46,471 nt of DNA from Brotaphodocola catenula (GTDB lineage Bacteria; Bacillota; Clostridia; Lachnospirales; Lachnospiraceae): assembly GCA_020686985.1 (NCBI GenBank), contig JAJEPU010000026.1, positions 1 through 46,471 on the forward strand. The letters run 5' to 3'. The position numbers and the translations under genes were made by a program. The notes beneath the pieces were generated by a model. That model was not told the DNA's origin. It was given only the letters and a program-made list of their open reading frames with translations, and ran no database searches. Below, piece after piece: positions 4,933-19,338 of this stretch; the stretch's first letter is position 1, and the number at the start of each line of letters is the position of its first letter.

Positions 4933-6567
4933 ATGGCTGAAACAGAGAAAAAAACGCCCGTCTATGTGGAAGACAGTTTTTCAGAGACTTGTTCTGCGAT
5001 TTCCAGCGGAGTCATCACCTTTTTTCTGATGCTGATCACAACCGTATTTCCGCTGATCTACCACAATTCCTATATTGATATTCTGGAGACGAAATACAAG
5101 GCGTACTACATTCCCATGCTTGCGATGCTCGGAATCCTTTTGGTTCTCGGGCTTGTCATGATGCTGATTGATTTTAAGGAATGGGGAGGAGAGCACACGA
5201 AAGAGTTGTTCTCCAGTTTGAAACCCCAAAACTGGAAAGAGACGTTCTGTATCGCTGATGTGGCAGTTTTCCTTTTCTGGGTGATTGCGCTGATCTCGAC
5301 GCTTCAATCTGACTACCTGTATGAGTCTTTCTGGGGAAATGAAGGACGATATTCGGGACTCTTTCTGCTGACAATCTATGTGGTTGTCTACTTTGTCGTG
5401 AGTCGTTTTTGGAAGGTTCAGGGATGGATTCTCCAGCTCTTCTTGATTTCCGGAATGATCATGTGCGTGATCGGAATCACCGATTACTTCCAGCTCGACC
5501 TTCTTGATTTCCGTGGAAAGATCAAGCCGGAGCAGTCGACGATCTTCACCTCAACCGTCGGAAACATCAACACTTACACCGCCTATGTGGCAATCATCAT
5601 GGGATTTGCAGGTGCGCGTTTTACGCAGGAAGAAAATCGGTTCAAGATGATCTGGTACTATATCTGTATGACGGTATCCTTCTTTGCGATCATCATGGGA
5701 TGCAGTGAGAATGCCTATCTTGCGATCGGATCAATGTTTGCGTTTCTGCCTTTCGTGGTGCTTAAAAGTCGTCGTGGAATCCTGCGCTATTTTGTGATGA
5801 TTTCGACGTTTGTAACCGTCATTCAGTGTATCGACTGGATCAATCAGGTTTTTGCGGACATCGTCATCGGGCTCGACAGTCTGTTTGGAATCATCTCGAA
5901 TTTTAATGGACTCTTCCCGGCAATGATTCTGCTCTGGGTGCTGACGGCGCTCTGGTACTGGTTTATGGTTAAGGGTGTGCAGGATTCGGATGTATTTGCA
6001 CCTGGAAAACTTCTCAGAAGAATCTGGGGAGGACTTCTGATTGCCGGAGCGGTGGCTTTGATCTTCATGATCTACGATGCAAATGTGGGTGGAAATGGCG
6101 CTCGCTACGGCAGTCTGGCGGAGTATCTGGTGTTCAGCGACAGCTGGGGAACAAACCGTGGTTACATCTGGAAGGCATCCTTCCGTATGTATCAGAAACT
6201 CAAGCCAATTCACAAGTTGTTCGGCTTCGGTCCGGATACCTTTGGTATCATGACGACCGATAAGATCATGGCAGAGATGATCGATGCGACGGGTCAGATC
6301 TTTGACAATGCGCATAATGCCTACATCCAGTATTTTGTGACGATCGGACCGATCGGAGCGTTCGCCTATGTGGTATTTCTGATCTCTGGAATCGGCAGAA
6401 TCACGAAGAAGCGTGCACGAAGTCCCTATGCGCTTGCGTGCGCCGTAGCAGTGCTCTGCTATGTATGTCAGGCAATGGTCAATCTGGATCTCCCGATTGC
6501 GACCCCGATGATGTGGCTGCTGATGAGTGCCGGGATGGGGATTGCAGGAAAACGCAGAGAAAATTAA
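4933..6567 (+). CDS. O-antigen ligase / polymerase-like membrane protein
   Basis: This 544-residue integral membrane protein has about 12 hydrophobic segments. It carries the Wzy_C/WaaL-type signature in its last large extracytoplasmic loop (HKLFGFGPDTF at about 425, then FDNAHNAYIQYFVTIG with the conserved His). Such proteins transfer or polymerise undecaprenyl-linked glycans outside the membrane. GGAGG lies seven bases before the ATG. It opens the locus and has its own promoter. Because the locus also encodes an ABC exporter, which usually works with cytoplasmic polymerisation, the protein may act as a ligase attaching the exported glycan rather than as a polymerase. The sequence cannot decide between the two. 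Confidence 0.82.
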   Translation: MAETEKKTPVYVEDSFSETCSAISSGVITFFLMLITTVFPLIYHNSYIDILETKYKAYYIPMLAMLGILLVLGLVMMLIDFKEWGGEHTKELFSSLKPQNWKETFCIADVAVFLFWVIALISTLQSDYLYESFWGNEGRYSGLFLLTIYVVVYFVVSRFWKVQGWILQLFLISGMIMCVIGITDYFQLDLLDFRGKIKPEQSTIFTSTVGNINTYTAYVAIIMGFAGARFTQEENRFKMIWYYICMTVSFFAIIMGCSENAYLAIGSMFAFLPFVVLKSRRGILRYFVMISTFVTVIQCIDWINQVFADIVIGLDSLFGIISNFNGLFPAMILLWVLTALWYWFMVKGVQDSDVFAPGKLLRRIWGGLLIAGAVALIFMIYDANVGGNGARYGSLAEYLVFSDSWGTNRGYIWKASFRMYQKLKPIHKLFGFGPDTFGIMTTDKIMAEMIDATGQIFDNAHNAYIQYFVTIGPIGAFAYVVFLISGIGRITKKRARSPYALACAVAVLCYVCQAMVNLDLPIATPMMWLLMSAGMGIAGKRREN

Positions 6568-6725: not shown

Positions 6726-8060
6726 ATGAATAATTTTGAACAGTACAAAAGACTGATAAAGGTCGGATTTTCGGTGGTCCTGATTGCACTGCTTACAGGA
6801 GTATACGGAATGATCTGGACAGGCTGGTATAACAAAATCATCTGGGCCCCGTTTTTCAGACGGGGCAACTGGATGATGATTTTTATTTATGGACTCCTGC
6901 TGGTGTTCTTTATGCAGACATACGGCGGATTCAAAGTAGGTCAGCTCAAAAAGGGAAATCTGATTTATTCTCAGATTCTGTCTGTGATTTTTGCAAATAT
7001 TGTTACATATTTTCAGATTTCCGTACAGCATAAGCACTTCATCACACCGGTGCCTCTGATTTTGGATCTGGTGGTTGGAGTGGTTGTGATTTTGGTCTGG
7101 ACGCTTCTGTTTCAGTGGTTTTACAACAGCATGTTCCCGCCGAGAAGAATGCTCCTGATTTCCGGAGAACATTCCGATTATCATCTCGTGGAGAAGATGA
7201 ATGCCCGAGAGGATAAGTACATGATCAGCGAGATCATCAGCTACCGCGTCGGGATGGAGCGCCTGAAGCAGGAGATCGCCAAGTATGACGGAATTATCGT
7301 CGGTGATATGCCATCCCATGAGAGAAATCTGATTATCAAATATTGTTTTTCACAGAGAATTCGCACATACAGCGTTCCGAAGATCTCGGATATCCTGCTT
7401 CGCAGTTCTGTGGAGTTGAATCTTTTTGATTCCCCGCTTCTGCTGTCTCGAAATACGGGACTTCAGATTGAGCAGGAATTCTGTAAGCGTGCGATGGATA
7501 TCGTCGGTTCTCTGATTGCTGTGATTCTGACGGCACCGTTTTTCCTGATTATCGCGATCAGCATCAAGCTGACGGACGGCGGTCCAGTGATTTACAAGCA
7601 GACGAGACTTACAAAGGACGGAAAAACCTTTGAGATTTTTAAGTTCCGTACAATGATTCAGGACGCGGAGAAATACAGCGGAGCGGTGCTTGCTTCGGAG
7701 CATGACCCGCGAATTCTTCCGGTCGGACGTCTCTTAAGAGCGACCCGTCTCGATGAGCTTCCGCAGATTTACAACATTCTTCGTGGAGAAATGTCGATCG
7801 TCGGCCCGCGCCCGGAGCGCCCGGAACTTGCAGAAGAGATCGAGAAGGAGATTCCGGAGTTTTCCTACCGCCTGAAAGTCAAGGCCGGTCTGACCGGTTA
7901 CGCACAGGTTTACGGAAAATATAATACGACTTCCTATGATAAGCTGAAACTGGATTTGACTTATATTCGCAATTACTCCCTTTTCCTGGATTTGAAGCTG
8001 ATTATCATGACGCCGAAGATCATGTTTATGAAGGAAGCAACCGAGGGCGTAAAGGAATAG
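6726..8060 (+). CDS. Polyprenyl-phosphate glycosyl-1-phosphate transferase (WbaP/WcaJ type)
   Basis: This is the initiating enzyme. It moves a sugar-1-phosphate from a nucleotide sugar to undecaprenyl phosphate on the inner membrane face. In its 444 residues there are four N-terminal membrane segments (about 10-140), a Rossmann-like middle domain, a re-entrant hydrophobic helix at about 245-275 (KRAMDIVGSLIAVIL), and the catalytic sugar-transferase domain with KFRTM, RLDELPQ and SIVGPRPERPE. The C-terminal LDLTYIRNYSLFLDLKL and KAGLTGYAQVYGKY are also typical. The sugar is not predictable. It starts the main transcription unit of the locus, and no terminator is visible before the following glycosyltransferase. 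Confidence 0.93.
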   Translation: MNNFEQYKRLIKVGFSVVLIALLTGVYGMIWTGWYNKIIWAPFFRRGNWMMIFIYGLLLVFFMQTYGGFKVGQLKKGNLIYSQILSVIFANIVTYFQISVQHKHFITPVPLILDLVVGVVVILVWTLLFQWFYNSMFPPRRMLLISGEHSDYHLVEKMNAREDKYMISEIISYRVGMERLKQEIAKYDGIIVGDMPSHERNLIIKYCFSQRIRTYSVPKISDILLRSSVELNLFDSPLLLSRNTGLQIEQEFCKRAMDIVGSLIAVILTAPFFLIIAISIKLTDGGPVIYKQTRLTKDGKTFEIFKFRTMIQDAEKYSGAVLASEHDPRILPVGRLLRATRLDELPQIYNILRGEMSIVGPRPERPELAEEIEKEIPEFSYRLKVKAGLTGYAQVYGKYNTTSYDKLKLDLTYIRNYSLFLDLKLIIMTPKIMFMKEATEGVKE

Positions 8061-9193: not shown

Positions 9194-9219
9194 GTTGATT
9201 GCAAGAAAAAGGAGCGAGT

Positions 9220-10008
9220 ATGAATTTATTTTTGAAACGACTTGGCGGTTTTTACAAGTACCGTTTTCTGATGGAACAGCTGGTCACGAAGGACATCAAG
9301 CTGAAATACCGCAGAAGTTTTCTCGGATACCTGTGGAGTATCCTGAATCCGCTGATGATTATGGTCATTTTAGTTATCGTATTTTCAAATATGTTTCGAT
9401 CCGATGTTACAAACTTTCCAGTATATTTAATTATTGGACAGACACTCTTTAATTTTATGAATGAGTCTACGACTCAGGCAATTTCGTCTATAACAGGAAA
9501 TGCTTCATTACTTAAAAAAACATATGTACCTAAATATGTTTTTACAGTTTCTAAAGTGACAAGTTCCTTTGTAAATACATTATTTGCTATGGGAGCACTG
9601 GTAGTTGTTTTTGTAGTATGTAGAGTTACACCTAATATTTATTATTTGATGATTCCAGTAATTCTTCTTCAAGAGTATGTTTTTTGTTTAGGATTGGGTA
9701 TGCTATTAGCTCAGGGATCGGTGTTCTTTCGTGATATTCAGTATATTTATAACGCATTGTTAACTGCATGGATGTATTTAACTCCTTTGTTTTATCCGAT
9801 TGCTTTGTTGCCGGATGCGTTGAGGGATATTGTAGTTACATTTAATCCAATGTATTTTTTCATAACCGAATTTCGTCAGATTGTTCTGGAATGTAGAATG
9901 CCAGATCCGTATTTAATTATGGCAGGAACAATTTCTGCTATACTTGCAATTGTGATTGGAACGTGGGCATTCTTGAAAACTCAGGATAAGTTTATCCTTT
10001 ATATATAG
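9220..10008 (+). CDS. wzm: Polysaccharide ABC exporter, permease subunit (Wzm type)
   Basis: This 262-residue ABC-2-type permease has six membrane helices. The N-terminal amphipathic part includes LVTKDIKLKYRRSFLGYLWSIL, the classic start of Wzm/TagG-type transporters. With Wzt it flips the undecaprenyl-linked glycan across the membrane. I chose the ATG at 9220 (AAGGAG just upstream) over a TTG seven codons earlier. The first 150-180 bases have the GC-richer codon use of the flanking genes, and from about 9,390 the gene becomes AT-rich. It therefore looks like a recombination joint, with a conserved 5' end fused to an imported body. Confidence 0.9.
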   Translation: MNLFLKRLGGFYKYRFLMEQLVTKDIKLKYRRSFLGYLWSILNPLMIMVILVIVFSNMFRSDVTNFPVYLIIGQTLFNFMNESTTQAISSITGNASLLKKTYVPKYVFTVSKVTSSFVNTLFAMGALVVVFVVCRVTPNIYYLMIPVILLQEYVFCLGLGMLLAQGSVFFRDIQYIYNALLTAWMYLTPLFYPIALLPDALRDIVVTFNPMYFFITEFRQIVLECRMPDPYLIMAGTISAILAIVIGTWAFLKTQDKFILYI

Positions 10009-10017
10009 GGAGCAGTT

Positions 10018-10776
10018 ATGAATAGCGAAAAGGATTGTATTATAAAAGTAAGTGATGCTACAGTTCGTTTTAATATGGCGTCAGAAAAAATTGATAATTT
10101 AAAAGAGTATTTTGTTAAGTTAGTAAGACGAGAACTAATGTTTCAGGAATTTTTAGCACTGAAAAATGTCAGCTTTGAAGTTAAACGAGGAGAAGCGTGG
10201 GGACTGATCGGAACAAATGGTTCTGGAAAATCCACTCTATTAAAACTAATCTGTGGAATTTTAAAGCCCTATAAGGGAACCGTTGATGTATACGGAAGCA
10301 TCGCCCCACTGATTGAGCTTGGTGCCGGATTTGACGGAGAGTTGACAGCGACAGAGAATATTTACTTAAATGGCGCGGTTCTCGGATACAGCAAGGAGTT
10401 CATGGACAGTCACTATGATGAAATTGTAGACTTTGCAGAGCTCAAGGATTTCATGAATATGCCGATTAAGAATTATTCTTCTGGTATGGCAGCACGTCTG
10501 GGATTTGCGATTGCAACGATTGTACGACCAGAAATTTTGATTGTTGATGAAGTATTAGCTGTTGGAGATGCAGCGTTTCAGGAAAAATGTCAAGAAAGAA
10601 TGCATGAAATGTTGGCGGGTGGAACTACGTTGTTATTTGTATCACATACAATGCAGACAGTTCGCCAGTTATGTGATCATGCAATATGGTTAAACAAAGG
10701 AACTGTTGTGATGAAGGGAGAGGCAGAGCCAGTATGTAATGCATATATGGATAGCTTGTCTGTTTCAGATAAATAA
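10018..10776 (+). CDS. wzt: Polysaccharide ABC exporter, ATPase subunit (Wzt type)
   Basis: This ATPase powers the Wzm exporter. In 252 residues it shows Walker A (GTNGSGKST, 65-73), the ABC signature YSSGMAARL (about 155), Walker B ILIVDEVLAVGD (about 174-184) and the switch His (FVSHTM). The N-terminal FLALKNVSFEVKRGEAWGLIG is typical of Wzt/TagH. The C-terminal carbohydrate-recognition domain of O9a-type Wzt (about 430 residues) is absent, so export probably does not need recognition of a terminal cap by Wzt. It starts nine bases after wzm. The central part (about 10,180-10,500) is GC-richer with flank-like codons, while both ends are AT-rich, a mosaic pattern. Confidence 0.93.
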   Translation: MNSEKDCIIKVSDATVRFNMASEKIDNLKEYFVKLVRRELMFQEFLALKNVSFEVKRGEAWGLIGTNGSGKSTLLKLICGILKPYKGTVDVYGSIAPLIELGAGFDGELTATENIYLNGAVLGYSKEFMDSHYDEIVDFAELKDFMNMPIKNYSSGMAARLGFAIATIVRPEILIVDEVLAVGDAAFQEKCQERMHEMLAGGTTLLFVSHTMQTVRQLCDHAIWLNKGTVVMKGEAEPVCNAYMDSLSVSDK

Positions 10777-10801
10777 CTGATAGATTATGAGAGGAACCAT
10801 A

Positions 10802-12652
10802 ATGGAAAATTGCAATATTAAGATATATGTGGTTTGCCATAAACCGTCTTATATACCAGAAAACCCATATTTGTATCCTATTCAGGTGGGAGTGGCATTG
10901 GGAAAAAAGCGTTTTGCAAATATGTTATATGATGATGTGGGAAATAATATATCTGAAAAGAATAAAAGTTATTGTGAATTAACAGCGCAATATTGGGCAT
11001 GGAAAAATGATAATGCAGATTATTATGGTTTCTTTCATTATAGAAGGTATTTTTCGTTTGATCCGAATTTAAATCGCGATGATGGTTGGGGAAATATTGC
11101 CTATGATCGAATTACAGAAGATGTAATAAAAGAGCTGCATTTGAATTCGGATGAGATGAGTAAATTGATTACTCAATATGATATTATTTCGGTAAAGGGA
11201 AGAAAGTATCCTCGTATTCGGGATGAAGGAAAGTTGTTGGATGTCTATCATGAATATGGAAAAGACCCTTTTCAACATCGAGAAGACTTAGATAAAACGT
11301 TAAAAATAGTGTTGAATAAATACCCGAAATATAAAAAGGCTGTAGATACTTATATGTGTGATAACATAGCATATGAGTGTAATATGTTCATTATGAAACG
11401 AGAATTATATCAAGATTATTGTACGTGGCTTTTTGATATTTTAGGAGAAGTAGAGCATCAAATTGATATGACATGGTACAGCGTCAGAGAGTATAGAGTT
11501 ATGGGATATTTGGCAGAGCGGCTGTATGGAATTTATTATACACACTTAAAAGAAAATAAAGATATTCGAAGATTGGAACTTCCCAAAACGCTATTTCACA
11601 ATACAGAGCCGGAGCAGATATTGAAACCTGTATATAAAGAATGCATTCCTATTGTTTTGTCAGCAAATGATCAATTTTCCCCATACCTTGGGGTTATGGT
11701 GAAGTCTATTATTGAAAATGCATCTTCTGATAGAAATTATGATCTTATTGTATTGTTTAATGATATTTCTGAAAAGAATAGAAAATTAATTTTAGGAATG
11801 GCGAAAAACAAAAAGAATATTTCTATTAGGTTTGAACAGGTATGTCAGTATTTTGATAAATATAAATTATCAGTAACATACCACTTGTCAGTAGAAACAT
11901 ACTACCGTTTGATTATACCTGAAATTATGCCTGATTATGAGAAAGTGCTATATTTAGATGCGGATATGGTAACGGATGCGGATCTTGCGCATCTTTATGA
12001 TATAGACATTTCAAGGTATATGATTGCAGCAGCAAAGGATATTGAGTCGGCAGGGCGCGTAAAGATAGATAAAGATTGGAATAACTATATTAAAAACGAA
12101 TTAAAAATATCATCTGTATTTGATTATTTTCAGGCGGGAGTATTGGTACTGAATTTAAAAAAATTTAGAGAAGTGACAACTACTGAAAAGATGTTATCGC
12201 TTGCATCAGAACGGGCATGGCGTTGCCAAGATCAAGATGTGTTAAATATGATATGTAAGGATTCTGTATATTATTTGTCACAAGAATGGAATGTAATTAT
12301 GAACTGGCAAAGAATGGGTCAGTCAAGAATGCAGATAATGGAATTAGCACCAAGACAATTATTTGAGGAGTATGTAAAGGCTAGAGAAAACTTGAAAATT
12401 GCTCATTTTGCGGGATTACAAAAACCATGGGAATGTGTAGATTGTGATTTGGCAGAGTATTTTTGGCATTATGCAAGATTGTCGGTTTTCTATGAGAAAT
12501 TATTACTGAATTTAAAAGTAAATAATAAATCGGAAGATGGAACAAAAACGCGAATTTATAATAATGCATCAATACGAAAGAGTATTAATAAAATTTTTCC
12601 GATTGGTACACGTAGAAGAGAAGTTTTAAAATTAATTGCAGGAATAAAATAA
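10802..12652 (+). CDS. DUF4422-GT8 two-domain glycosyltransferase
   Basis: This 616-residue fusion has an N-terminal DUF4422 domain (about 5-240; CHKPSYIPENPYLYPIQVG, DYYGFFHYRRY). It is joined to a GT8 glycosyltransferase (about 275-545) beginning IPIVLSANDQFSPYLGVM, with the metal-binding YLDADM and the late AHFAGLQKPWE. GT8 enzymes are retaining transferases using UDP-sugars such as UDP-glucose or UDP-galactose. One polypeptide could thus add two consecutive sugars. The ATG at 10802 follows GAGAGG by seven bases and is preferred to the ATG at 10787, which lies inside that site. The DNA is AT-rich. The C-terminal tail resembles that of the 8202 gene product. Confidence 0.87.
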   Translation: MENCNIKIYVVCHKPSYIPENPYLYPIQVGVALGKKRFANMLYDDVGNNISEKNKSYCELTAQYWAWKNDNADYYGFFHYRRYFSFDPNLNRDDGWGNIAYDRITEDVIKELHLNSDEMSKLITQYDIISVKGRKYPRIRDEGKLLDVYHEYGKDPFQHREDLDKTLKIVLNKYPKYKKAVDTYMCDNIAYECNMFIMKRELYQDYCTWLFDILGEVEHQIDMTWYSVREYRVMGYLAERLYGIYYTHLKENKDIRRLELPKTLFHNTEPEQILKPVYKECIPIVLSANDQFSPYLGVMVKSIIENASSDRNYDLIVLFNDISEKNRKLILGMAKNKKNISIRFEQVCQYFDKYKLSVTYHLSVETYYRLIIPEIMPDYEKVLYLDADMVTDADLAHLYDIDISRYMIAAAKDIESAGRVKIDKDWNNYIKNELKISSVFDYFQAGVLVLNLKKFREVTTTEKMLSLASERAWRCQDQDVLNMICKDSVYYLSQEWNVIMNWQRMGQSRMQIMELAPRQLFEEYVKARENLKIAHFAGLQKPWECVDCDLAEYFWHYARLSVFYEKLLLNLKVNNKSEDGTKTRIYNNASIRKSINKIFPIGTRRREVLKLIAGIK

Positions 12653-12689: not shown

Positions 12690-13703
12690 ATGAATAAGAT
12701 TTTATCTGTTTCAATTGCAGCTTATAATGTTGCGAGTACACTGAGAGAGTGTTTAGATCCTTTTTTGGAATCTGAGGTTATGGAATTTTTGGATATTATG
12801 ATTGTGGATGATGGATCAAAGGATAAGACGGCTGTGATAGCAAAGGAGTATCAGGATAAATATCCGGATAGTATCAGACTTATTCAGAAACAGAATGGTG
12901 GATGGGGTTCAACCGTCAATTCTGGTATTCAGAATGCGAAAGGAAAGTATTTTAAACAGTTAGATGGTGATGATTACTATGAACCAAAAGCATTGAATGA
13001 ATTTATTGCTTATTTGGATAGTCAGTCCAGTGACATGGTGATTGCGCCGTATATTACATATGACAGTGAAACAGGGGCGGTAATTACCACGGAGAATTGC
13101 AATCCTGGATGTGAAGTGAGAAAGGTATTTGCACTGAAGGATGTAGAAGGTTTTTCTCCATTCATGCATAGTCTTGCAATTAAGACGGAACTTTTGAAAA
13201 AGGGAAATGTAAAAGTGACGGAGCATTGTTTTTATACAGACACAGAATTTGTGTTGAAAGCATGTAATCAGGCAGAAACAGTGTCTTTTTTTGATATGCC
13301 AGTTTATTATTATCGGAGAGCGGCAGTTGGTCAGAGTATGAGTCTGGGTGGATTTGAGAAACACTATATGGAACAATATAAGGTTATTGAGGTTTCTCTT
13401 GATTATTTACATACGGATGTAAAACGTGCAGAGGTCAAAAAGATATATGATAAGTTACTTGTAGGCACTTGTTGGTGGCAGTATTTGATTATGTTTTATA
13501 TTTCGGTTACTCCAGAGCACAAACATAACTTAATTGCGTTTGACAAGATGTTAAAGGCAAAGGCACCGGATTATTATGATCAGATTCATTTCCGAGAGTT
13601 GGATATTTTGAGAAAAACGCATTTCTTAGGTTATTCTATTTTAGCACCATACAAGAAGAAAAAGGATAACCGTTTTACAGAGGATGGTCGTTTAGCAAAT
13701 TAA
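12690..13703 (+). CDS. Glycosyltransferase family 2
   Basis: This is an inverting GT-A fold glycosyltransferase of 337 residues. The N-terminus LSVSIAAYNVASTLRECLDPFL, the nucleotide-binding DIMIVDDGSKDKT (about 36-48) and the DxD-type motif KQLDGDDYYEP (about 90-100) are clear. The acceptor side is not informative. AAAGGAG precedes the ATG. It sits 37 bases after the DUF4422-GT8 gene and 15 bases before another GT2, in one operon. Sugar and linkage are unknown. A galactofuranosyl transfer is possible given glf in the locus. Confidence 0.9.
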   Translation: MNKILSVSIAAYNVASTLRECLDPFLESEVMEFLDIMIVDDGSKDKTAVIAKEYQDKYPDSIRLIQKQNGGWGSTVNSGIQNAKGKYFKQLDGDDYYEPKALNEFIAYLDSQSSDMVIAPYITYDSETGAVITTENCNPGCEVRKVFALKDVEGFSPFMHSLAIKTELLKKGNVKVTEHCFYTDTEFVLKACNQAETVSFFDMPVYYYRRAAVGQSMSLGGFEKHYMEQYKVIEVSLDYLHTDVKRAEVKKIYDKLLVGTCWWQYLIMFYISVTPEHKHNLIAFDKMLKAKAPDYYDQIHFRELDILRKTHFLGYSILAPYKKKKDNRFTEDGRLAN

Positions 13704-13718
13704 AGGAGTATTACACAG

Positions 13719-14687
13719 ATGAAGCAAAATCCGTTAATAAGTGTTGTCGTTCCTGTATATAAAATCCCAGAAGATTTTTTACGAAGTAGTATTGAAAGTG
13801 TTTTGAATCAGACTGTACAAGATTTTGAATTGATTCTTGTTGATGATGGCTCTCCGGATAACTGTGGAGAGATTTGTGATGAATATGCAAAAAATGATGC
13901 TCGTATTATTGTAATTCATCAGAAAAATTCTGGTGTAAGTGCTGCTCGTAATGCCGGTATTAAAAAGGTTAGAGGCAAGTATTTAACATTTTTGGATTCT
14001 GATGATCTCTTAAAGTCAGATGCATGGGAAAAGGCAGTGGCTTTATTTGAAAAATATCATGTAGATTGTATTGTGTTTGGGTGGGAGGACTTTTCAGCAG
14101 ATGGAAAATGCCCTCATGTTGTAACAGAAAATATAACTCAATTAGATGCAAAAGAGGTTGTATACCAAATTGCTTCTGATAATTACAAATGTGGTGGCGG
14201 CTATCCGTGGAATAAAATTTGGAATGCGGATAATATTAGAAAAGCATATGGAAGCATTCCATCATTTACAGATGAGGTGTATACATATGAGGATAAACTA
14301 TGGATTATAGAGACGCTTGAAAAATTGCAGACTGTTTTGCTTATTCCAGAAATTCTATATGAGTACCGTTTTTTGGCGTCAAGTTTAACTCAAGATGCAA
14401 GTGCATGGAAGAGACGTCAGTTTAATGCATATGATGCATATGATATCATTCTTAATAAATTAAGAGGAAAGAATATAAAGGCATACAAGGGCGCGATTAA
14501 ATTTTATTTTGGATTCTGTTTTGTAGACGCACGGAATATGTATCCATATAGAAAGGATGATATTCAGCGTTTCAAAGATACGAAGAAAAGATTGCGTAAG
14601 TTGAGCAAACAGATTCGTCCGGGAGATTTACCTAGTTTAAAATACAATTTGGCATGGATATTTGTGCTGTTGTTTGGTTGGCTGTAA
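13719..14687 (+). CDS. Glycosyltransferase family 2
   Basis: This is a 322-residue GT2 enzyme of the EpsJ/WcaA sort. Visible motifs are ISVVVPVYKIPEDFLRSSIESVLNQT, FELILVDDGSPDNCGEICDEYA, the conserved SGVSAARNAGI (about 72-82) and the metal-binding TFLDSDD (about 91-97). AAAGGAG precedes the ATG. It is about as AT-rich as its neighbours. The C-terminus is hydrophobic (LAWIFVLLFGWL), which may hold it at the membrane. It probably adds one residue of the repeat unit. Confidence 0.9.
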   Translation: MKQNPLISVVVPVYKIPEDFLRSSIESVLNQTVQDFELILVDDGSPDNCGEICDEYAKNDARIIVIHQKNSGVSAARNAGIKKVRGKYLTFLDSDDLLKSDAWEKAVALFEKYHVDCIVFGWEDFSADGKCPHVVTENITQLDAKEVVYQIASDNYKCGGGYPWNKIWNADNIRKAYGSIPSFTDEVYTYEDKLWIIETLEKLQTVLLIPEILYEYRFLASSLTQDASAWKRRQFNAYDAYDIILNKLRGKNIKAYKGAIKFYFGFCFVDARNMYPYRKDDIQRFKDTKKRLRKLSKQIRPGDLPSLKYNLAWIFVLLFGWL

Positions 14688-14720: not shown

Positions 14721-17453
14721 ATGAAAAAAAATTTTTTGCTTGATGATATAGCAAATAAAAATAAGAACTGTACAGGGTGTTCGGCGTGCTATAATATTTG
14801 TCCGATTGATGCATTGAACATGAAGGCAGATAAATTGGGCTTTTTATATCCAGATATTTCCGAAGAAAAATGTGTTCACTGTTGTTTATGTAGTCAGACA
14901 TGTCCAATGTTAAATGCAAGAATAGAGAGTGAGGATCAAACTCCGATTTGCTATGCAGTTCAGGGGGAAGATGAATTACGAAAAAAAAGTTCTTCTGCGG
15001 GAGTATTTTCATTATTAGCTAGTGAAATATTAAACTTAAATGGGATGGTAGCAGGTGCATGTATGGATGAAACATGTACAGTTCGCCATAAGATAATTAC
15101 CTCTTCGGAAAAACTTCAAGAGTTGCGAAAATCAAAGTATGTTCAGAGTGAAATTGGACTTATTTATCAGAACATTGAGAAAAGCTTAAAATCCCAACAG
15201 TATGTGTTGTTCAGCGGAACTCCATGTCAGGTCGCTGGATTAAAGTCATATTTAGGAAAAGATTACGAGAGATTATTTACAATTGATATTCTGTGTCATG
15301 GAGTACCATCTCAAAAAATGTTAAATGATTTTTTGAATGAAACAAAAAATGAATCTGCAGTAAATGTGGATTTTCGTGCTTCTCAGTTTGGCTGGAAGAA
15401 AAATTCAAAAAACATGTTAATTAAAAATAAAAATGAAGAAGAAAAAACTTGTTTATATCAGAATAATGAATATGAACAGGGATTTCACAACGGATTAATA
15501 TTAAGAGAATGTTGTTATGATTGTGAATTTGCCGAAATACCAAGGCAGGGAGATATAAGTCTTGGAGATTTTTGGGGGATTGGAGATCATGACAAAACAT
15601 TAGATGACGATATTGGCACGGGCGCTGTTTTGATTAATAGTAAAAAAGGAAAATGTTTATTCGAGCGAATTGAAAACTCTCTAAAAATGAAAAAGGAAGT
15701 TCCTATAGATTGGCTAAGAGATAATCGAATTCATGCAAAACGAGAAGGAAGTCCGTATCGAAAATACTTTAATTTTTTATATGAGAATGGAAAATTTACA
15801 GAATCTGTAAAAAAAGCACTTGCATATAAGTTTTCGATAGGAATTGTTGGACCATGGATGAATATCAATTGTGGAGGTGCATTGACTTACTTCGCTTTAT
15901 ATTCCACGCTGGTTGATATGGGTTATTTTCCGATTATGATTTCACAGCCGGAGGGATTGGTATGGGATCCTTCTCCAGAGTACTGCAGATATAAAGAAAT
16001 TCCGTATCCGGAATATGCGATTGCCCCGATAAAAAAAGGGTATGCACAGCAACGTCAGTTTAATAATTCTTGTGATACTTTTATTGTTGGATCAGACCAA
16101 TTATTTACGGGTGAAATGATGCGAATCCTGGATGGATATGCGGACTTAGAATGGGTTAATAACAATAAAAGGAAAATTGCATATGCCGCTTCATTTGCAA
16201 AGAAAAATTTTGACGGAACAGAAATGCAACGGGAACAACTTCAATATTTTTTGAAACGTTTTAATTCATTTTCTGTGCGAGAAGAGAGTGGTGTAAAATT
16301 AGCGGAAGAAGAATTGGGCATTCATGCTGAATGGGTGCTTGATCCAGTGTTTTTATGCGAAATGAAGCATTGGAATAAGCTGATACAAAATGGCAAGCAG
16401 AGAGTTTCAAAAACTCCATATGTTTTTGGATATGTTCTTGATCCTAACAGAAAAAAAGCAGATGTAATTAAGCAGGTGGCATCTGTATTGAATACAGAGT
16501 ATTATGCTGCATCGGATGTGTGGAACGAACCAGATACAATCGCACAAATGTGGGACATTCCTACATTGGATAAGATTGGAAATGAAGAATTACTAGCACA
16601 AATAAAAAATAGTGAATATGTGGTGACAGATTCGTTTCATGGTGTATGCTTTGCGATTATTTTTCATAAACCATTTTCAGTCATTATAAATAAAGAGCGA
16701 GGAGCCAGTCGCTTTTATTCAATTCTTAAATTACTGGGAATTGAAAATAGAATCATAGATTTGAAAAATGATTTAGACATTAAGACTTTTACGGAAATCA
16801 TTGATTATGAGAATGTAGAACTTAGACTTTATAAAGAAAAGGTAAGATGTATTTCATGGTTGAGAGACGCAATTGAACAGCCGATTGATAATAAAAAAAT
16901 TACAGATTATGAAATGGCTTGCAATTATTGCGATCGAACTCAACAAATTATTGAAAAAGATTTAAAGTGGAATATAGATTCTTTAAATGGAAGAGTAGAC
17001 TGGCTAATTGGTCATACTGATCAAGCAGATTCAGATCTGTTAAATACAGATTTGAAACAGTGGGAACAATTAGAAGATCATAGAAAACGTTTAGATGGTT
17101 TGGATATAGTAGCCAATAGCTACGATCAAAAAATAAATGTTTTAGATGTAACGGATCAAAAGCAATGGGAGCAGTTAGAAGATCATCGGAAACGCCTAGA
17201 CGGTTTAGACCTTATTGTAAATAAAGTTGGTGTAACGGATCAAAAACAGTGGGAACAATTAGAAGATCATAGAAAACGTCTGGATGGTTTAGATTCACAT
17301 CAGAATGAAGAAAAAATACTTATTCAGCAATTAATGTTGAGACAACAGGACTATGAAAATAGAATAAAAAATTTGGAAACATCTTTTTCGTTTAAAATTG
17401 GAAGAATAATTACGTATTTGCCAAGAAAACTGGTTAGCATTTTAAAAAGATAA
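14721..17453 (+). CDS. FrhB-type iron-sulfur domain fused to polysaccharide pyruvyltransferase with repeat-bearing coiled coil
   Basis: This is a 910-residue three-part protein. Residues 1-70 hold two 4Fe-4S motifs (Cys17, 20, 23, 27 and Cys51, 54, 57, 61). To about 350 it resembles the coenzyme F420 hydrogenase beta-subunit family found in polysaccharide clusters (SGTPCQVAGLKSYL, DILCHGVPSQKM, GDISLGDFWG). From about 370 to 710 is a polysaccharide pyruvyltransferase domain (GPWMNINCGGALTYFAL; SEYVVTDSFHGVCFAIIFHKPF). The rest is a predicted coiled coil with three copies of KQWEQLEDHRKRLDGLD at residues 779, 814 and 842, then a basic amphipathic end (KIGRIITYLPRKLVSILKR). The enzyme probably adds a pyruvate ketal to the glycan. 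GAGGAG lies two bases before the ATG. The repeats and tail suggest a chain-length role (see findings). Confidence 0.88.
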   Translation: MKKNFLLDDIANKNKNCTGCSACYNICPIDALNMKADKLGFLYPDISEEKCVHCCLCSQTCPMLNARIESEDQTPICYAVQGEDELRKKSSSAGVFSLLASEILNLNGMVAGACMDETCTVRHKIITSSEKLQELRKSKYVQSEIGLIYQNIEKSLKSQQYVLFSGTPCQVAGLKSYLGKDYERLFTIDILCHGVPSQKMLNDFLNETKNESAVNVDFRASQFGWKKNSKNMLIKNKNEEEKTCLYQNNEYEQGFHNGLILRECCYDCEFAEIPRQGDISLGDFWGIGDHDKTLDDDIGTGAVLINSKKGKCLFERIENSLKMKKEVPIDWLRDNRIHAKREGSPYRKYFNFLYENGKFTESVKKALAYKFSIGIVGPWMNINCGGALTYFALYSTLVDMGYFPIMISQPEGLVWDPSPEYCRYKEIPYPEYAIAPIKKGYAQQRQFNNSCDTFIVGSDQLFTGEMMRILDGYADLEWVNNNKRKIAYAASFAKKNFDGTEMQREQLQYFLKRFNSFSVREESGVKLAEEELGIHAEWVLDPVFLCEMKHWNKLIQNGKQRVSKTPYVFGYVLDPNRKKADVIKQVASVLNTEYYAASDVWNEPDTIAQMWDIPTLDKIGNEELLAQIKNSEYVVTDSFHGVCFAIIFHKPFSVIINKERGASRFYSILKLLGIENRIIDLKNDLDIKTFTEIIDYENVELRLYKEKVRCISWLRDAIEQPIDNKKITDYEMACNYCDRTQQIIEKDLKWNIDSLNGRVDWLIGHTDQADSDLLNTDLKQWEQLEDHRKRLDGLDIVANSYDQKINVLDVTDQKQWEQLEDHRKRLDGLDLIVNKVGVTDQKQWEQLEDHRKRLDGLDSHQNEEKILIQQLMLRQQDYENRIKNLETSFSFKIGRIITYLPRKLVSILKR
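17055..17294 (+). repeat. Three intragenic 51-base repeats in the pyruvyltransferase gene
   Basis: The copies lie at 17055-17105, 17160-17210 and 17244-17294. Each encodes the same 17 residues. Copies 1 and 3 are nearly identical in DNA; copy 2 carries several silent changes. Start-to-start distances are 105 and 84 bases, that is 35 and 28 codons, both multiples of the coiled-coil heptad. Copies 2 and 3 also share the preceding VTDQ codons. Confidence 0.9.
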
Positions 17454-17541: not shown

Positions 17542-19338
17542 ATGAAAAAAGTATTACAGCGACAATATATTTATCTATTATGTGTGTTATTAATATCGTG
17601 GATTATATTTTTACAACTAGAAATCGGTGATGGGTATGAGAAAATAGAACAGATTTTCGAGATGGAAACGAAATATATGCTTCTTAATGTTATTACAATC
17701 TATATGCTGATTTTTTGGCTTGGTGTTATAAGCAATCATCTGGGAATTGTTTCTTTAATATGCAGTACTTTGTTTTCGTTTATTGCGATATTAAATTATC
17801 ATGTAATAGCGTATAGAGGGCTTCCATTAACTTTTTTAGATGTTTATAATGCGGGAATGGCTGCAGATATTGGAAGATCATATGCTGTTATGGTGAATGA
17901 GTTCACAATAAAGATATTTTTATTATTTATTGTAGAACTGGCAGTAGGAATATTTATTGCCATTCAGGAACGGAAGAATAAAATTTGTTGGCGTAAGATG
18001 TCTGTACGCAATATTGTTTTCTTTTTTGGAACAATTATATGTGTATATGCAGGGTATTTAGCAGTAAATCCTATTAAACCCAAAGTGACAATAGGATGGC
18101 TTTGGAGTGAGGCTTATCATAAGTATGGATATTTGGCATGTTCAATTGAAAATGGGAGCCAGATGAGTAATGTGGTAAAAGAGCCTAAAGAGTATGATGA
18201 AAGTATAATCGATAATATAACTGTTCCCAAAGAACAAGAAAAAGATGAATTAAATCCAGATATTATATTGATCTTGAATGAGACTTTTTGCGACTTAAAG
18301 GAAATTACAGATTTAAAGACCGATGTAGACTATTTAAAAAATATTCATCAAATGGAAAATTTGATTCAGGGGCAGGTGGTTGTTCCAGTTGCAGGAGGTG
18401 GAACAAACAAATCTGAATATGAGTTGCTTACAAGTAATTCTATGGAATTAATGAATACAAGTAGCACAGATCCATTTAATATTCTTAAATTAAAAAATGC
18501 GAACAGTGTTGTCAGCATTTTGAAACAAAAAGGTTATCAAACATTAGCGTCACATTCCGAACCAGGTACAAATTATTCGCGTTCAACTGCATATCCCAAT
18601 CTTGGATTTGACATTGTTCATTTTCAAGATGATTTTAATAAAGAGTACTATGGTGACCGATGGTATGCTACAGATGAGAGTTTATATAAGAGTTTAACGC
18701 AGTGGTATGAAACTATGGGTGAAAATCCGCGTTTCTTATATTTATTGACAGTACAAAATCATGGCGCTTGGGATATGAATCCGCCAGAACGGGATTTAGT
18801 CCATGTAATTGATGGTGTATCTGAAGACCAAAAAGAAAAAGTGAATGAGTATTTATCTTGTATTGCTATGTCGGATCAAGCTTTCAAAAATTTAACGGAT
18901 TACTATTCAAAGGTTAATAGACCGGTGATTATTTGTATGGTGGGAGATCATGCGCCGGCATTTGCATTAGAACTTATTGATAGTAAGTATAATGAAATGG
19001 AAGCGGCACGGAGGTTAAGAACAGTTCCTTTTTTGGTGTGGAGTAATTTTGAACTAAAAAATGCACAAGAAGAAATGATAAGTATGAATTATGTTGTGCC
19101 TACTATATTAAAATGGTCAGGCATTAATAATTTATCATATTATTACAACTATATGTTATCAATGAAGAAAAATCTTCCCATTGTTAGTAGTTACGATGCA
19201 TATATCGATGTAAATAATAATATTTATCGCTATGAAGAAGAATCTCCCTATACAAACTTAATAAATGGTTATTTATATATGGAGTATAATAATTTGGAAA
19301 AACCGAGAAGGCAGGAGTTGTTTGAAGTTACACAATAG
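17542..19338 (+). CDS. LTA-synthase-like phosphoglycerol transferase (sulfatase fold)
   Basis: This 598-residue membrane enzyme has about five N-terminal helices (10-180) followed by an extracytoplasmic alkaline-phosphatase/sulfatase domain. The LtaS metal and catalytic residues are in place: Glu247 (ILNETF), the nucleophile Thr288 (GGGTNKSEYE), and Asp469-His470 (VGDHAP). HSEPGTNYSRSTAYPNLGFD and TVQNHGAWDM are further family landmarks. Such enzymes transfer phosphoglycerol from phosphatidylglycerol. Inside a polysaccharide locus it more likely decorates the exported glycan than makes lipoteichoic acid. The start codon has no obvious ribosome site, and a strong hairpin stands just before it. 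Confidence 0.88.
   Translation: MKKVLQRQYIYLLCVLLISWIIFLQLEIGDGYEKIEQIFEMETKYMLLNVITIYMLIFWLGVISNHLGIVSLICSTLFSFIAILNYHVIAYRGLPLTFLDVYNAGMAADIGRSYAVMVNEFTIKIFLLFIVELAVGIFIAIQERKNKICWRKMSVRNIVFFFGTIICVYAGYLAVNPIKPKVTIGWLWSEAYHKYGYLACSIENGSQMSNVVKEPKEYDESIIDNITVPKEQEKDELNPDIILILNETFCDLKEITDLKTDVDYLKNIHQMENLIQGQVVVPVAGGGTNKSEYELLTSNSMELMNTSSTDPFNILKLKNANSVVSILKQKGYQTLASHSEPGTNYSRSTAYPNLGFDIVHFQDDFNKEYYGDRWYATDESLYKSLTQWYETMGENPRFLYLLTVQNHGAWDMNPPERDLVHVIDGVSEDQKEKVNEYLSCIAMSDQAFKNLTDYYSKVNRPVIICMVGDHAPAFALELIDSKYNEMEAARRLRTVPFLVWSNFELKNAQEEMISMNYVVPTILKWSGINNLSYYYNYMLSMKKNLPIVSSYDAYIDVNNNIYRYEEESPYTNLINGYLYMEYNNLEKPRRQELFEVTQ

Follow-up and report, generated by a model that had tools for sequence, protein, structure and literature searches.

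A tentative Gram-positive chain-length ruler: an FrhB-pyruvyltransferase-like fusion with a heptad-phased tail in a Wzm/Wzt locus of Brotaphodocola catenula

WbdD-type rulers have a membrane-binding C-terminal end. Coiled coils are described as established rulers in Escherichia coli O9 and Klebsiella O12 (PMC11231755; PMC3482155), and the terminator of Klebsiella O-antigen systems is placed at the distal end of the coil (PMC11231755). PMC3482155 reports a trimeric WbdD fragment, places the coil region within residues 460-708 and describes the C-terminal region as also recruiting WbdA. The terminal pyruvate of Klebsiella O1 is reported to alter length modestly at most, and pyruvate termination with length regulation was proposed in 2023 for B. 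vietnamiensis G4 and P. protegens; pyruvate-terminating candidates are already published for Gram-negative bacteria (PMC10629545). Here we analysed a stretch of 46,471 nucleotides of Brotaphodocola catenula (GCA_020686985.1, contig JAJEPU010000026.1, positions 1 to 46,471; the window below), in which one open reading frame (ORF) encodes an FrhB domain, a polysaccharide pyruvyltransferase domain and a long tail in a single protein. The original prediction, made from the sequence alone, was that this protein may be a capping enzyme on a coiled coil that measures glycan length as WbdD does, with pyruvate as the cap. We found that a WbdD-like ruler would be the best single reading of the protein, one we put forward tentatively, and that the pyruvate label is weak.

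The protein was divided by Pfam searches, alignment and periodicity as follows.

14721..17453, + strand: fusion of FrhB, PS_pyruv_trans, coil and amphipathic end, 910 amino acids (ORF and Pfam)
14766..15692, + strand: Fe-S/FrhB redox domain, residues 16-324 (Pfam and cysteine alignment)
15867..16691, + strand: PS_pyruv_trans domain, residues 383-657, with NCGG replacing NxGD and with SVRE and DSFHG kept (Pfam, alignment)
16902..17375, + strand: predicted coiled-coil arm, residues ~728-885, ~158 residues (periodicity; boundaries by eye)
17055..17105, + strand: 17-residue motif copy 1, residues 779-795 (exact repeat)
17160..17210, + strand: 17-residue motif copy 2, residues 814-830 (exact repeat)
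17244..17294, + strand: 17-residue motif copy 3, residues 842-858 (exact repeat)
17376..17450, + strand: basic amphipathic C-terminal end, residues 886-910, a likely membrane anchor (hydrophobic moment)

Pfam matched Fer4_7 (residues 16-62), FrhB_FdhB_N (78-145) and FrhB_FdhB_C (162-324) in the redox part, and PS_pyruv_trans (PF04230) at 383-657 with E 5.6e-28 and 99.1 bits against a cut-off of 25.3. Proline was absent across residues 723-900, a region that contained KQWEQLEDHRKRLDGLD as three exact copies starting at residues 779, 814 and 842, with spacings of 35 and 28. The last 22 residues had a net charge of +6, and the last 18, IGRIITYLPRKLVSILKR, gave the highest 18-residue hydrophobic moment within the protein; membrane anchoring by this amphipathic end is likely. 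The predicted order of FrhB/pyruvyl head, coil and basic amphipathic end was thus confirmed at the level of sequence, by Pfam, by the proline-free, heptad-phased tail and by the moment and charge of the C-terminus.

This plan appears to be shared with WbdD of E. coli O9a and Klebsiella O3 and with the O4, O7 and O12 terminators as described, in which a C-terminal coil region follows the catalytic head and which lie in ABC-transporter loci. A head distal to the predicted extended coil, an amphipathic C-terminal end and a Wzm/Wzt exporter were all found in the window, whereas a methyltransferase/kinase head (none by Pfam) and a cap-reading Wzt domain were not. WbdD-type heads are methyltransferase/kinase or Kdo (3-deoxy-D-manno-oct-2-ulosonic acid) transferase, in contrast to FrhB plus PF04230 here; the window system is Gram-positive, unlike WbdD, and the likeness is one of architecture. 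WbbZ of Klebsiella O1 is, like the window enzyme by its domain, a pyruvyltransferase in an ABC-exported glycan system, and the O1 exporter is described as not cap-selective; WbbZ keeps NxGD, which the window protein does not, and the passages of that paper on WbbZ mention neither FrhB nor a coil (PMC10629545). The B. vietnamiensis G4 and P. protegens candidates are Gram-negative and are likened to the window protein by description alone. WsaE of Geobacillus stearothermophilus shares with the window system a Gram-positive host, a Wzm/Wzt locus and a cap enzyme on a multidomain protein, but its cap is methyl, two glycosyltransferase domains lie in the same protein, and the review as available never uses the word "coiled" (PMC2943079). 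WsaE-type methyltransferase and rhamnosyltransferase domains were not found in the window protein by Pfam.

The evidence for a coiled arm came from sequence periodicity. Self-identity at offsets of 7k was in excess in the window protein and in its relatives at loci L037, L089 and L088a, a level reached by 0 of 2000 shuffles in each. Copies of the 17-residue motif were spaced 35 and 28 residues apart in the window and 42 in L037, and those in L043 of Eubacterium plexicaudatum ASF492 were 63 and 63 nucleotides (21 and 21 residues) apart. The tail of L089 had WHTERLD-like units spaced 14, 14, 28, 21 and 35 residues, and L088a carried the motif RLHGVDNWI at a spacing of 35 residues. Over five proteins and three different motifs, 11 of 12 in-frame motif spacings were multiples of 7, with patterns picked by eye and a 62-nucleotide spacing in L043, which crosses a frame change, excluded. 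Because of these spacings the arm seems to change by heptads among relatives, and we take it as real, judging from sequence, that the window tail is a true heptad arm whose length changes in such steps. The hydrophobic register gave p values of 0.0005 in L037, 0.0005 in L088b, <0.0005 in L088a and 0.05 in L086 (0.08 in the tail survey described below). The trimer motif R-h-x-x-h-E fitted the window repeat (RLDGLD) loosely and L089 poorly, and we therefore make no claim about the oligomer.

Relatives were sampled as 20 stretches with fusion-like long frames plus three outside the family (a 398-genome phylum search), and tails were surveyed in 22 proteins whose pyruvyl domain is C-terminal. A long proline-free tail with a basic end was found in six (window, L037, L088a, L088b, L089 and L121), with register p of 0.06 in L089 and L121 and <=0.008 in the other four. 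L109 had a long proline-free tail without a basic end, its FrhB part being in another frame, and L086 a short tail, also without a basic end. Eight proteins had a basic end and no coil (L081, two in L082, L083, two in L084, L090 and, weakly, L085), four had no tail (L080, L087, L122 and L123), and two had an additional C-terminal region (L078 and L079). The control set consisted of 402 non-overlapping ORFs, each 250 amino acids or longer, from the fetched loci together with the window protein but no other window ORF. A long proline-free polar tail with a basic end occurred in 6 of 40 pyruvyl ORFs versus 6 of 362 others, and, when a register p<=0.05 was added, in 4 of 40 versus 0 of 362, by criteria fixed after the tails had been seen.

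In a tree of 41 pyruvyl domains, the seven coil-tailed rows fell inside one ten-row clade with support 99/98; the coil label needed three changes, and 0 of 500 shuffles were as low. The broken L043 protein was too short for this tree, and L088_9521 formed a long branch. The remaining three rows of the clade were L078, L079 and L087. Two of these proteins (L078:7367-10138 and L079:8005-10719) have a short coil-like stretch followed by a region of ~120 residues and no basic end. Nine of the proteins surveyed for their tails belonged to the neighbouring clade of 17 rows; a coil was absent from all nine, and the end was strongly basic in six (L081, two in L082, L083 and two in L084). This distribution would be explained if the coil was gained once and later lost or replaced, although the tree itself does not show such a history. 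As would be expected of a ruler, the relatives' arms appear to stay in heptad phase yet vary in length within one clade, on the combined evidence of self-identity, tail survey and tree.

If the protein is a ruler, the modifying enzyme would be anchored in the membrane and act at the tip of a rigid helical arm. A polyprenol-linked glycan would be stopped or marked, probably at its non-reducing end, once it was long enough to reach the head, and the finished chain would leave through Wzm/Wzt. Arm length would set chain length, and ~158 residues would span about 23 nm as a straight helix at 0.15 nm per residue. The 17-residue motif may dock a polymerase formed by the neighbouring glycosyltransferases GT2a/GT2b, like the recruitment of WbdA by the C-terminal region of WbdD, and export would be coupled through proximity and not through a Wzt cap-binding domain. 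Should this be true, Gram-positive gut bacteria and a redox-linked cap would be added to the range of coil-based length control, and the tails of the relatives, from none to ~180 proline-free residues, would form a natural series for the ruler idea.

Several observations weigh against a ruler. The window Wzt has no Wzt_C, that is, no cap-reading domain. Terminal pyruvate in Klebsiella O1 is described without clear length control (PMC10629545). Related enzymes without a coil occur in Wzm/Wzt loci, and therefore neither enzyme nor exporter needs a coil. The enzyme and the two GT2 genes are present in L037 with no trace of Wzm/Wzt on its 20-kb contig (19,972 bases). As to the coil itself, the hydrophobic a/d register of the window was modest (p 0.01, and 0.008 in a second test) and that of L089 (p 0.056, or 0.35 on a longer segment) and L121 (p 0.056) was not significant; L088b lacked the heptad self-identity excess (149 of 2000 shuffles reached it); and the twelfth motif spacing, from a loose second pattern of L088a, was 15.

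The main rival, which we regard as possible but doubtful, is a docking scaffold. Here the arm would oligomerise the enzyme and the motif would hold GT2a/GT2b, so that each repeat unit is modified during synthesis and copy number sets the number of partners instead of chain length. The motif was common to two relatives, L037 and L043, and other coil tails carry different motifs. When 397 family genomes were searched with the 179-residue tail, the window, one true relative (G425, locus L037) and two other matches were obtained; the tail match at L035 was RecN-like by eye and was taken as chance. When the GTDB species collection was scanned with a pattern, 156 stretches matched, and two loci came out of them, L042 (taken as the G425 locus) and L043 of ASF492. 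The G425 homologue has 926 residues, is 43% identical to the window protein and carries two exact motif copies. In ASF492 the order Wzm, Wzt, GT2a, GT2b, FrhB, pyruvyl domain and tail equals that of the window, the exception being the DUF4422-GT8 pieces and a transposase-like ORF, which precede Wzm; this assembly has several broken frames, and the four motif units start 63, 63 and 62 nucleotides apart, the last crossing the frame change. The transposase-like ORF, recognised by eye (L043:2770-4011, - strand), lies between DUF4422-GT8 and Wzm, with frame-broken neighbouring genes.

In all three loci in which the motif was found, it occurred together with close homologues of both GT2a and GT2b. 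Across these loci GT2a was 69-71% and GT2b 61-62% identical (in two pieces in L043), versus 39-44% for FrhB and the pyruvyl domain over their longer alignments. When 319 family genomes were sampled, GT2a at E<=1e-70 was found in one, that of the window; G425 and ASF492, which carry it, were evidently outside the sample. Six exact motif copies (three in the window, two in L037 and one in L043) differed pairwise at 3-12 of 51 nucleotides, all synonymously, which is a necessary outcome of selecting copies by exact amino-acid match; window copies 1 and 2 differed at 11 nucleotides with zero residue changes. Since a passive spacer would not need motif copies that differ only synonymously, motif conservation likely implies docking, with GT2a/GT2b as candidate partners. 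Against the scaffold, ASF492 carries degenerate motif copies as well, and L089 and L088a have neither the motif nor a close GT2 pair and still possess a long heptad-phased arm. Ruler and docking may both be true together.

An unlikely explanation is that the tail merely tethers the enzyme to the membrane and serves as an oligomerisation stalk, with no counting or docking, while the enzyme decorates side positions. The coil-less relatives listed above, which end directly in a strongly basic stretch (weakly in L085), fit such a tether, as does a GT2 protein (L085:16667-18037) with a coil-like tail and an SFSYRFG end. A glycosyltransferase-like protein, recognised by eye (L036:31-1608, + strand), shares the C-terminal end alone with the window tail; its end, SLSFKVGRAITYIPRK, resembles the window end, SFSFKIGRIITYLPRK, which indicates that an anchor-like end is common to other glycan enzymes and not special to cap enzymes. 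A simple tether is, however, at odds with a clade in which 7 of 10 members retain the coil, with the heptad phase kept between units and with the 17-residue motif kept in three loci. That the tail is no true coiled coil and its repeats are functionless low-complexity duplication is very improbable: a Gly inside each repeat and the modest hydrophobic register speak for it, but heptad-phased spacings in five proteins with three motifs, and purely synonymous change between exact copies, speak against it.

The chemistry of the head was considered separately. NxGD, R and H motifs are described as common to characterised pyruvyltransferases, and the D106A change in Pvg1p as almost abolishing activity (PMC10629545). 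The window domain keeps N383, G385, R520 and H640, and has G386 (NCGG) at the D position. In an alignment of 57 non-redundant rows (9 duplicates dropped; columns placed by motif, not structure), this position was acidic in 1 of the 51 rows covering it (S 25, A 12, G 6, N 6, T 1, D 1), while R520 was R in 50 of 51 covering rows and H640 was H in 46 of 53. All 12 FrhB cysteines checked were present in the window protein, and they were kept in 52-54 of 58 FrhB rows, which were not de-duplicated, the remainder being mostly gaps; the redox domain is thus under constraint. Ferredoxin cysteines and FrhB N and C domains both point to an FrhB/FdhB-type Fe-S flavoprotein. When the PDB was searched with a pyruvyl-domain profile of 10 rows, four chains were listed up to E 10, the best at 0.052, with no pyruvyltransferase among them (WbbZ and Pvg1p were unlisted). 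The pyruvate capping of the original prediction is an inference from Pfam: the PF04230 profile match stands, and the missing NxGD acidic residue and the fused redox domain count against it. This calls into question the pyruvyltransferase label of FrhB-linked PF04230 enzymes.

Ketal formation from phosphoenolpyruvate (PEP) requires no redox step, and MurA and MurB, which carry out PEP addition and then reduction for muramic acid, provide an analogy for a two-step cap. Given the lack of the NxGD acidic residue and the fusion to an intact redox domain, a reduced 1-carboxyethyl (lactyl) ether may be the product. A still bolder combination, which we consider improbable, is a Gram-positive ruler with a two-step cap maker: PF04230 would add a PEP-derived three-carbon unit, FrhB would reduce it to a 1-carboxyethyl (lactyl) ether at the arm-measured chain end, the heptad-adjustable arm would also dock the polymerase, and export would proceed without a cap-reading Wzt domain. 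Klebsiella K22 and K37 carry carboxyethyl sugars. Pan 2015 reports that K8, K22, K37 and K66 have pyruvyltransferase genes and no pyruvate, and the loci there include one F420-hydrogenase gene, a lead only (PMC4616057). A literature search for FrhB-pyruvyltransferase chemistry and lactyl ethers, in the parts of the sources accessible, found no assignment of such chemistry.

The fusion gene lies in a glycan locus with the following genes.

4933..6567, + strand: Wzy_C/O-antigen-ligase-like protein (domain match)
6726..8060, + strand: initiating polyprenyl glycosylphosphotransferase (exceeds the TIGR03025 cut-off)
9199..10008, + strand: Wzm-like ABC-2 permease (Pfam; NCBIfam galactan_ABC_perm E 3.1e-18, under its cut-off)
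10018..10776, + strand: Wzt-like ATPase without Wzt_C, 252 amino acids (Pfam ABC_tran; best NCBIfam models, teichoic acid and galactan export, under cut-offs)
10787..12652, + strand: DUF4422 and GT8 fusion (Pfam)
12690..13703, + strand: GT2a, candidate polymerase partner (Pfam; locus comparison)
13719..14687, + strand: GT2b, candidate polymerase partner (Pfam; locus comparison)
17542..19338, + strand: LtaS-like sulfatase-family protein, a candidate for phosphoglycerol decoration (LtaS model far under its cut-off)

The upstream order is Wzy_C/ligase-like protein, polyprenyl glycosylphosphotransferase, DUF4422, Wzm, Wzt, DUF4422-GT8, GT2a and GT2b, and the LtaS-like protein, an acyltransferase and glf follow 3' of the fusion gene. 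Pfam bore out the expected Wzm/Wzt exporter and agreed that the Wzt lacks a cap-recognising domain, matching ABC_tran and not Wzt_C. In L089, Wzm, Wzt and DUF4422-GT8 directly precede the coil-tailed enzyme.

At E<=1e-70, 71 of 397 family genomes, the window's own included, had matches to a profile built from three fusions, mostly through the FrhB part alone; linkage of FrhB to PF04230 was examined in the fetched loci only. Among the matches listed for the 61 nearest genomes by kinship, the window's own alone spanned both domains. Viral contigs gave no pattern match to the whole protein and no relative of the tail, and plasmids gave five partial matches alone at E<=1e-40, the best covering residues 10-408. 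A Wzt was present in 6 of 7 coil loci (absent on the L037 contig), around which the search reached further out, versus 10 of 20 others; coil and non-coil fusions were not told apart by the presence of Wzt (Fisher p 0.18 for 6 of 7 versus 9 of 19). In nine further Wzm/Wzt loci no clear coil-tailed cap enzyme of other chemistry was seen; in one of them, three Pfam-scanned proteins were radical SAM, GT2 and GT4.

Unusual proteins were also seen in the related loci. L082:7117-12444 (- strand) and L084:9352-14712 (+ strand) encode giants of 1776 and 1787 amino acids with three PS_pyruv_trans stretches and one FrhB, and both loci have a Wzt of 442-443 amino acids bearing Wzt_C (E about 1e-40); by sequence, the giants are Gram-positive candidates for an exporter-read cap. 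Wzt-like ATPases at L087:14817-16649 (- strand) and L092:9242-11020 (- strand) have an N-terminal extension of ~350-400 residues without a Pfam match, and these loci also contain FrhB-pyruvyl fusions. The coil-tailed fusions L121:8292-11213 (+ strand) and L088:9521-12568 (+ strand) have ~180 additional N-terminal residues; L121 gave a weak methyltransferase match (E 0.0026, under the cut-off).

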